A stretch of DNA of 64,000 nt, taken from Mycobacteriales bacterium. Lineage in GTDB: Bacteria > Actinomycetota > Actinomycetes > Mycobacteriales > CADCTP01. The position numbers and the translations under genes are program-made. This document shows positions 56,468-59,808 of this stretch, piece by piece. The stretch is taken from NCBI GenBank assembly GCA_035995165.1, contig DASYKU010000093.1, forward strand, positions 1 to 64,000. The letters are read 5' to 3'. Below the pieces are notes generated by a model. The model had not been told where the DNA came from. It ran no database searches and saw nothing but the letters and a program-made list of their open reading frames with translations. Position 1 is the stretch's first letter. The number at the start of each line of letters is the position of its first letter.

Positions 56468-56495
56468 GGTGCTGTCGATGAGTCGGAGGCCAGCA

Positions 56496-58250
56496 GTGAC
56501 CGTCACCGCCCCCTCGCCGATCGTCAGCCGCCCCGCTCCGGTGCGGACGACGTCGCGTGGGTCGATGCTGCTCGACCTGCTCAAGACGACCGATCACAAG
56601 CTGATCGGCAAGATGTACCTGGTCACGGCGTTCCTGTTCTTCCTCGCGGGCGGCCTGATGGCCCTGCTGATGCGCGGTGAGCTGGCCCGCCCGGGCCTGC
56701 AGTACCTCAGCCTGGAGCAGTACAACCAGCTGTTCACCATGCACGGCACGATCATGCTGCTGTTCTTCGCGACGCCGATGGTCTTCGCGTTCGCCAACCT
56801 GGTGCTGCCGCTGCAGATCGGCGCCCCGGACGTGAGCTTCCCGCGGCTGAACGCGTTCTCGTACTGGCTGTATCTCTTCGGCGCCCTGACCGCGGTGTCC
56901 GGTTTCGCCACGCCCGGCGGCGCCGCCGACTTCGGGTGGTACGCGTACTCGCCGCTCACCGACTCGATCAACTCGCCCGGCGTCGGTGCCGACCTCTGGT
57001 TCGTCGGCCTGGCGATCTCCGGCCTCGGCACGATCCTCGGCGGCGTCAACATGATCACCACGGTGATCACGCTGCGCGCGCCCGGCATGACGATGTTCCG
57101 GATGCCGATCTTCACCTGGAACATCCTGGTGACCAGCGTGCTGGTGCTGCTGGCGTTCCCGATCCTCACCGCGGCGATCTTCGGCGTGATGGCGGACCGC
57201 AAGTTCGGCGCGCAGATCTTCGAACCGCAGAACGGCGGCGCCATCCTCTGGCAGCACCTGTTCTGGTTCTTCGGCCATCCCGAGGTCTACATCGTGGCGT
57301 TGCCGTTCTTCGGCATAGTCACCGAGATCATCCCGGTCTTCAGCCGCAAGCCGATCTTCGGCTACAAGGGCCTGGTCGGCGCGACGATCGCGATCGGCGC
57401 CCTGTCGGTGACGGTCTGGGCGCACCACATGTTCGCCACCGGCGCCGTGCTGCTGCCGTTCTTCTCGTTCCTGACCTACCTCATCGCGGTGCCGACCGGG
57501 ATCAAGTTCTTCAACTGGATCGGCACGATGTGGCGGGGCTCGATCAGCTTCGAGACGCCGATGCTGTGGTCGATCGGCTTCCTGGTCACCTTCCTGCTCG
57601 GCGGGCTGACCGGCGTCATCCTCGGCTCGCCCCCGCTGGACTTCCACCTCAACGACTCGTACTTCGTGGTCGCGCACTTCCACTACGTGCTCTTCGGCAC
57701 GATCGTGTTCGCGGTCTTCGGCGGGATCTACTTCTGGTTCCCGAAGTTCACCGGCCGCTACCTGGACGAGCGGCTGGGCAAGCTGCACTTCTGGGCCACG
57801 TTCGTCGGCTTCCACCTCACCTTCCTGGTGCAGCACTGGCTGGGTGCCGAGGGTATGCCGCGGCGGTACGGCGACTACCTGCCCGGCGACGGCTTCACCA
57901 CGCTGAACACGATCTCGACGGTGGGCTCGTTCCTGCTCGGCGTCGCCACGGTGCCGTTCCTCTGGAACGTCTACCACTCCTACAGGTACGGCGAGGTCGT
58001 GACCGCGGACGACCCGTGGGGCCACGGCAACTCGCTGGAGTGGGCGACGTCCTGCCCGCCGCCGCGGCACAACTTCACCGTCATGCCGCGGATCCGGTCC
58101 GAGCGGCCGGCGTTCGAGGCGCACTACCCGGAGCTGGCCGAGCGGCTCGAGCTGGAGGCCCACTCCGGCAGCGGGCCGCTCGGGCCGAACGACCTGGTCG
58201 GGGCGGACGTCGGGTCGCGGCAGGGGGCGAAGGACCCCGACCCGAGCTGA
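56496..58250 (+). CDS. ctaD: Cytochrome c oxidase subunit I
   Basis: 584-residue haem-copper oxidase core subunit of the aa3 enzyme that reduces O2 in the membrane. The 12-segment pattern includes haem a ligand His in [12 protein letters not shown], the CuB region [17 protein letters not shown] (His and cross-linked Tyr), WAHHMFATG (two CuB His) and the haem ligands in [17 protein letters not shown] 56496 is chosen because GGAGG lies 6 nt upstream; GTG 56469 and ATG 56478 are in frame. Followed by a SerB2-like gene, the same order as ctaD-serB2 in mycobacteria. Confidence 0.96.
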
Positions 58251-58256
58251 CCCTGG

Positions 58257-58281
58257 TGTCACACCGGTGGCGCCTGTGACA
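58257..58281. other. Inverted repeat TGTCACA-N11-TGTGACA
   Basis: Seven-bp arms just after the ctaD stop and about 10 bp before a possible extended -10 (TGATACCGT, 58295-58303) for the next gene. Either the ctaD terminator or an operator for the SerB2-like gene. Confidence 0.4.
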
Positions 58282-58376
58282 TGTCGTGCGCGCCTGATAC
58301 CGTTGCGTAATCCCTTCCCGAGCTGACCGCGCGGGCCTCACCAGGCCCCGCTGACCCCAGCGCAAGACCCTTCCTC

Positions 58377-59585
58377 ATGCACCCACACTCCGTGCTCGTC
58401 ACCGTCACGGGACACGACCGCCCGGGCATCACCTCCGCCCTGTTCGCCGCGCTCGCCGCGCACGACGTGGAGGTCCTGGACGTCGAGCAGGTCGTCATCT
58501 CCGACCGGATGGTGCTCGGGGTGGTGCTGGCCCTGCACGGTGACCCGGCCCCGCTCCGCCGCGCGGTCACTCACGCGGCCGAGGCGCTCGGCACCGAGGT
58601 CGAGGTGTCCATCACCGAGGACCCGGACGCGGTCGGCAACGCGATGCCGGTCCGCCACCACGTGATGGTGCTGGGCCGCCCGCTGCGGGCCGGCGCGGTC
58701 GGTGAGATGGCGCGGCGGATCTCCGACCTCGGCGGCAGCATCCACTCGATCGTCCGGCTCACCCACCGGCCGGTGACCGCGCTGGAGCTGGTCGTGTCCG
58801 GGGTGGACGCGGCCCGGCTCGGGGCCGGCCTGGTCCAGGGCGCGGCCGCCGCCGGCGTCGACGTCGCGGTCGAGCGCGCGGGCCTGCAGCGGCGGGCCAA
58901 GCGGCTGCTGATGATGGACCTGGAGACCGTGCTGGCCGGGCCGGAGCCGTTCGCGGCGCTGGCCGACCAGATCGGCCGCGGCGCCGAGTCCCGGCGGCTG
59001 CTGGCCGCGGGCGAGGCCGAGGGCAGCTCGACCGCGGAGGTGGTCCGGACCCGGGCCGCGCTGCTGGCCGGCGCGCCGGTGGCCACCCTGGACGTGCTGC
59101 AGGGACAGATGCGCTGGACGCACGGGTCGCGTGCGCTGCTCGGTGCCGCCCGCCGGGCCGGGCACCGCACCGGCGTGGTGACCGGCGGGATCGCCCAGGT
59201 CGCCGAGCGGCTGGTGGACGGGCTGGAGCTGGACTTCCTGGCCGCGAACCGGCTGGAGACCGCGGACGGCCGGCTCACCGGCCGGATCGTCGGTGAGGTC
59301 GTCGGCGGCGGCGGGCGGGGCCGGGCGCTGGTCCGCTTCGCCGAGTCGTACGGGGTGCCGCTGGCGCAGTCGGTCGCGGTCGGCTGCGGAGGCGAGGCGG
59401 CCGAGCTGCTGCGGCTGGCCGGGCTGGGCGTGGTGCTGGACGTGGCCCGCCCGGCCGAGCCGGGGTCCGAGCGCAGCGCGCACCTGGATGCGCTGCTGTT
59501 CGTGCTGGGGATGCGGTCCGACGATCCGGAGGAGGCGCCGCTGCGCCCCGAGGACGTGCTCGCCACCGCCCGCCGCTCCCGCTGA
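58377..59585 (+). CDS. SerB2-like protein with two ACT domains and degenerate phosphatase site
   Basis: 402-residue homologue of SerB2 phosphoserine phosphatase, by position (next to ctaD) and full-length layout: two ACT domains (about 1-80 and 92-165) and a HAD domain (about 180-380). Key residues are lost: the nucleophile motif DxDST is MMDLETVLAG (second Asp to Glu, Thr to Val), the motif III lysine is Arg (GRGRALVRF), and GDGANDxxML is GCGGEAAELL. The VTGG motif remains. It is therefore probably not a normal phosphatase, and may be an ACT-ligand-binding regulator. Confidence 0.88.
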   Translation: MHPHSVLVTVTGHDRPGITSALFAALAAHDVEVLDVEQVVISDRMVLGVVLALHGDPAPLRRAVTHAAEALGTEVEVSITEDPDAVGNAMPVRHHVMVLGRPLRAGAVGEMARRISDLGGSIHSIVRLTHRPVTALELVVSGVDAARLGAGLVQGAAAAGVDVAVERAGLQRRAKRLLMMDLETVLAGPEPFAALADQIGRGAESRRLLAAGEAEGSSTAEVVRTRAALLAGAPVATLDVLQGQMRWTHGSRALLGAARRAGHRTGVVTGGIAQVAERLVDGLELDFLAANRLETADGRLTGRIVGEVVGGGGRGRALVRFAESYGVPLAQSVAVGCGGEAAELLRLAGLGVVLDVARPAEPGSERSAHLDALLFVLGMRSDDPEEAPLRPEDVLATARRSR

Positions 59586-59624
59586 TCGCCCGCCGCTCCC
59601 GCTGACCGGCCGCCGCGCGCTGAC
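59567..59624. repeat. 20-bp tandem duplication at the SerB2-like stop
   Basis: 59567-59586 and 59587-59606 differ only at the last base, and a diverged third copy runs to 59624. The TGA at 59583-59585 is inside unit 1. Confidence 0.85.
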
Positions 59625-59716: not shown

Positions 59717-59749
59717 ACGCCGATCAGGACATCGCCCGGTCGCGGGAAC

Positions 59750-59808
59750 GGCGACGTGAGGCGGCGACGTGAGGCGGCGACGTGAGGCGGCGACGTCAGG
59801 CGGCGACG
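59750..59808. repeat. 13-bp tandem array at the pncA stop
   Basis: Four units of GGCGACGTGAGGC (the fourth with GTCA in place of GTGA, providing the pncA TGA on the minus strand) plus a partial fifth inside the coding end. Confidence 0.88.

Follow-up and report, generated by a model that had tools for sequence, protein, structure and literature searches.

A ctaD-linked SerB2 orthologue in Mycobacteriales with conserved ACT domains and an altered metal site: a probable pseudo-phosphatase

Locus, domain architecture and orthology

The window analysed here, a stretch of 64,000 nucleotides from a draft genome of the Mycobacteriales, carries at positions 58377..59585 of the + strand, on which ctaD and the parts of the gene described below also lie, an intact gene, open in frame, for a protein of 402 residues. 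Its reading frame, Pfam domains, phmmer alignment and synteny mark it as the positional orthologue of serB2, with a probable pseudo-phosphatase as its product. Immediately upstream lies ctaD (56469..58250), encoding cytochrome c oxidase subunit I, a conserved neighbour which anchors the orthology. The same adjacency is found in the sister assembly (AVDCRST_MAG41; L004/L047), whose protein is 83% identical to that of the window, and in 28 of the 28 Mycobacteriales loci tested; because ctaD adjoins the gene in all of these, it is the vertically inherited serB2 itself and no paralogue. The order lig-ctaD-serB2-pncA-pncB, in which some gene names were assigned by recognition, is common to the window, the sister and genome G024. 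A stretch of the intergenic region between ctaD and serB2 (58273..58329) is 86% identical in the sister (49/57, counted by eye) and possibly holds a promoter of its own.

Pfam places ACT_6 at residues 5-77, ACT_PSP_2 at 94-166 and HAD at 209-336, all above cut-off, and the protein has the two N-terminal ACT domains followed by HAD-IB that characterise SerB2. In phmmer its whole length aligns with structures of mycobacterial SerB2 (E about 1e-66), and the ACT-ACT-HAD layout and ctaD neighbourhood described in the earlier note are thus borne out by Pfam, phmmer and the 28/28 loci. The likeness to SerB2 of M. tuberculosis and M. avium comprises full-length homology, domain order, serine-sensing residues of the ACT domains and predicted fold, to which the ctaD neighbourhood common to Mycobacteriales orthologues is added. 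Unlike SerB2, however, the window protein lacks the motif IV metal ligands, has a large part of its invariant HAD positions changed (see below) and scores 84 bits against the NCBIfam serB equivalog model, under the cut-off of 144.

Two tandem arrays were also noted: one of 20 bp at 59565-59616, which overlaps the 3' end of the gene, and one downstream of it at 59749-59808 of the window, with 4.6 copies of the 13-bp unit CGGCGACGTGAGG. In G024 there are two canonical SerB2 copies, one linked to ctaD (L017/L046) and one elsewhere that is Jiangella-like (L045), a paralogue or contamination (5%).

The catalytic domain

The HAD (phosphoserine phosphatase) domain comprises residues 173-356 (58893..59444), and of the 64 positions that the alignment shows to be invariant in canonical relatives, 30 differ. 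As had been read earlier from the letters, motif I is DLETV (58917..58931) in place of DVDST, the motif III lysine is replaced by R314 (59316..59318), and motif IV is GCGGEA (residues 336-341; 59382..59399) instead of GDGAND, with the loss of both acids (D337C and D341A). In motif II, T269 (59181..59183) replaces Ser and keeps the hydroxyl, and F219, D218, M213 and other invariant residues of the cap and core have also been lost. The 34 invariant positions that are kept include the nucleophile D181, G336, G338 and two substrate contacts that are retained in both species of the genus, E190 (58944..58946), which we take to be the equivalent of E20 of M. jannaschii PSP, and R226 (59052..59054), presumably the equivalent of R56 of that enzyme. 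The catalytic site that the earlier note had called eroded is unevenly so: most of the named changes are conservative, and the real loss is that of motif IV.

The corresponding motifs of the sister are DMDIV (I), VTPG (II), Arg (III) and GCGQDA (IV). Since the sister retains DMD in motif I, the D183E exchange is recent and did not found the series of changes. The canonical motifs are all present in 28/28 ctaD-linked orthologues of the order and in three from Jiangella; in Jiangella muralis, a partial second copy of the C-terminal part of serB follows the full gene (L007:4911-5279 region), possibly an assembly duplication. The alignment of ctaD-linked orthologues had been proposed as a check on sequence error, and bears directly on whether the changes arise from sequencing, assembly or a contaminating contig. 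Such an artefact could be suspected of a draft genome with an estimated contamination of 3.9%, but its probability is negligible, as the independent sister assembly has the same gene order and the same key losses, and we consider sequence error and contamination to be ruled out by this second genome.

Mutants of M. tuberculosis SerB2 (MtSerB2) help to weigh the individual changes: D185N and S273A abolish activity, D187N leaves it near normal, K318A retains about half of it, D341N lowers it about sevenfold, D345N leaves about half, and D341N/D345N has none that can be measured (PMC4270767). The D341/D345 pair corresponds to C337/A341 of the window protein, the mapping to MtSerB2 numbering being made via the M. 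avium sequence. By analogy, the protein would probably withstand the motif I and Lys exchanges on their own, and might withstand those of motifs I, II and III on their own; what decides is that motif IV has lost its two aspartates. The case for inactivity rests on motif IV, because two of the three motif changes first cited sit where single mutants of MtSerB2 keep much activity. The identical aspartate pair is removed in M. avium SerB2 D343N/D347N (PDB 5it0) and in MtSerB2 D341N/D345N, and the single mutant MtSerB2 D341N still oligomerises with serine (PMC4270767); unlike in the laboratory double mutants, the change described here is natural (Cys and Ala), occurs in two species and stands beside many others.

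An acid occupies the place of the motif IV Asn in both species (E340 in the window, D340 in the sister), and another remains at position 343; metal might therefore still be bound, weakly or in an altered way. One alternative is that the protein remains a HAD phosphatase whose metal ligands have been rearranged (E183/D183, E340/D340, E343) and whose activity, possibly still directed at phosphoserine, is altered or slower. The conservation or conservative replacement of D181, E190, R226, T269 and R314, the shared acid at position 340 and the activity kept by the D187N and K318A mutants, and in part by the D345N and D341N singles (PMC4270767), all agree with this explanation. Nevertheless, we regard it as unlikely, given that motif IV has lost its two aspartates at once, a combination that inactivates MtSerB2 in the corresponding double mutant, that motif II of the sister is VTPG, and that F219, D218, M213 and further cap and core residues are gone.

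The ACT domains and the distribution of constraint

A distinct picture results from the N-terminal half. In ACT domain 1 (residues 5-77; 58389..58607) D14, G17 and E32, equivalents of the serine-sensing residues of mycobacterial SerB2 (PMC4270767, PMC10564941), are kept, as are R101, G106 and T134 in ACT domain 2 (residues 94-166; 58656..58874); altogether, 10 of the 11 invariant ACT positions are conserved. In MtSerB2, the binding of serine requires G18 and G108 (PMC4270767), and the change of oligomer that serine drives depends on E33, R103 and T136 (PMC10564941). Aligned through M. avium SerB2, the residues equivalent to G18, G108, E33, R103 and T136 are all present, as G17, G106, E32, R101 and T134.

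The relative conservation of the two halves is also inverted. Of 496 canonical pairs, 494 have a HAD domain with higher identity than the ACT pair, whereas between window and sister the ACT pair is 90% identical and the HAD domain 81%, and selection has thus been re-weighted from the HAD domain towards the ACT pair in this genus, a lineage of which two species are known, the sister being a metagenome assembly. In the unrooted HAD tree the stem of the genus measures about 1.9 (1.49 + 0.41) of a total of 8.0, about 24%, and is followed by short tips; in the unrooted ACT tree it measures 0.38 of 12.7 (3%). The HAD stem is therefore about 8 times too long and then gives way to a slow-down.

Substitution rates between window and sister (NG86) give a dN/dS of 0.34 for the whole gene, 0.11 for ACT1, 0.25 for ACT2 and 0.41 for the HAD domain, within which the core is at 0.29 and the cap at 0.66, and 0.21-0.39 for the neighbouring genes; third positions are 97% GC, which depresses dS and makes the absolute values unreliable, so that the figures should be compared with one another within the locus only. 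HAD differences fall on the three codon positions as 18/17/49 (p = 7e-6). There was a burst of change and then renewed constraint, and no decay, in agreement with the earlier view that the gene is maintained: the overall ratio is low, differences lie mostly at third codon positions, and the losses are common to the sister.

The constraint on the HAD core (0.29) is a further point for an enzyme that is still active. The relaxed cap (0.66) and the variable C-terminus of the protein are, in turn, what could be anticipated if SerB2 had become redundant beside another phosphatase and were slowly degrading without function, and two observations described below, the complete loss of SerB in other genomes of the order and an eroded copy that is also losing ACT residues, point the same way. 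Yet the frame is open, codon bias and a strong third-position excess have persisted since the split from the sister, ACT1 is at 0.11, the burst was followed by a slow-down and the intergenic stretch is conserved, and we consider a dying gene to be quite improbable.

As to the fold, an AlphaFold2 model has a mean pLDDT of 79.7 and a pTM of 0.65, obtained from a shallow alignment of 35 rows and bearing on fold and not on activity. Its best Foldseek matches (E about 1e-35) are chains of M. avium SerB2, with the D343N/D347N mutant among them, which suggests that the SerB2 fold is retained.

The serine pathway and candidate replacement phosphatases

The genes serA (616 bits) and serC (630 bits) are intact, and are so in both species of the genus. 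A canonical serB elsewhere, for which the earlier note had advised to look, was found in neither the window genome nor that of the sister: no protein scores above the family cut-off in these assemblies (100% and 96% complete). Other HAD-IB matches of the window genome (on C152, C94 and C14) reach 29-37 bits and resemble other HAD-IB groups. That the genome has no other canonical SerB also counts towards residual activity of the window protein.

Across the order, 304 of 399 genomes have a serB above cut-off. Four that do not (G015, G007, G010 and G023) nevertheless have serC and a full serA; because such genomes keep both genes, SerB replacement probably occurs in the order. In G010 the serB model matches nothing at E <= 1e-4, which makes a phosphoserine phosphatase of another, unknown kind likely there, and f15 genomes with intermediate serB scores have no SerB2-like protein. 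Two further genomes, G057 and G064, have serC and no serB above cut-off.

Gene predictions around serC and serA of the window genome revealed no replacement phosphatase adjoining either. Unrelated phosphoserine phosphatases have precedents (PMC9026213), and PspA, the histidine-phosphatase type PSP of Hydrogenobacter thermophilus (PDB 4ij5), is a precedent for the replacement of SerB, being without homology to the window protein. There are 12 histidine phosphatase matches in the window genome, among which an RNase H-His-phosphatase fusion is the best match to 4ij5 (E = 1e-26). This fusion and a GpgP-like protein are candidate replacements, and similar proteins also occur in the sampled genomes that lack SerB.

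Interpretation

The combination of lost catalytic residues and an otherwise maintained fold is that of a pseudoenzyme, and the window protein is probably a sensor without an enzyme. The reading that we favour, with a probability of roughly 60%, is that of a maintained, serine-responsive pseudo-phosphatase, the last step of serine synthesis being covered by another phosphatase. It explains best why a protein that has lost its metal site still carries every sensing residue of its ACT pair. An amino-acid-sensing pseudo-enzyme had been suggested before, and this part of the suggestion stands as far as residues can tell, but two of the three motif changes on which it had been built carry little weight.

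The following course of events would account for these observations. In the ancestor of the genus the HAD half lost the Mg2+-binding motif IV, an event that can be read from the two genomes, and with it most likely the hydrolysis of phosphoserine, judging from the M. tuberculosis SerB2 mutants. Presumably a phosphatase that is unrelated or only distantly related took over the phosphoserine step and so would have freed the SerB2 orthologue; such a takeover is suggested by intact serA and serC, by the absence of a canonical serB and by other families of the order that manage without SerB. Selection still protects the two-ACT module, which would bind L-serine and set the oligomeric state, as well as a remodelled HAD core with its nucleophile and substrate contacts. 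A likely mode of action would be a serine- or phosphoserine-responsive oligomer acting upon a partner, which might be the replacement phosphatase or another enzyme of the serine pathway.

A more specific proposal, which we put forward as tentative, is that the pseudo-phosphatase is the serine/phosphoserine sensor of the pathway, which through its retained ACT pair and phosphoserine contacts would control the replacement phosphatase or SerA/SerC in trans, SerB having disappeared or become inactive on more than one occasion in the order. If the pseudo-phosphatase reading is true, evolution has uncoupled sensing from catalysis in a model allosteric enzyme and provided a natural counterpart to the laboratory double mutants; it would also suggest that actinobacteria with serA and serC but without SerB (e.g. 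the f15 and f10 families) have a phosphoserine phosphatase still to be recognised. A search of the open literature, which was not exhaustive, returned no pseudoenzyme derived from phosphoserine phosphatase.

Other altered SerB2 loci

A second, independently eroded protein, which offers a partial parallel, is encoded in G133, of another family of the order, f2 (L110:1501-2655; G133:C64). Like that of the window, it is a ctaD-linked ACT-ACT-HAD protein with DLE in motif I (DLEAT) and a disrupted motif IV (ARGCSD), in an assembly (82% complete) that has no serB above cut-off. It differs in belonging to a separate lineage and in having lost ACT invariants and both substrate contacts (E190A, R226Q); its relatives have the canonical residues, apart from G140 with its mild changes. 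Because of these losses and the incompleteness of the assembly, the G133 copy may be decaying. In G140, one locus (L116) has the milder changes DVDAT, E to Q and GDGADD, and a second SerB2 copy (L132), truncated by the end of its contig, looks canonical and could reflect contamination or early redundancy.
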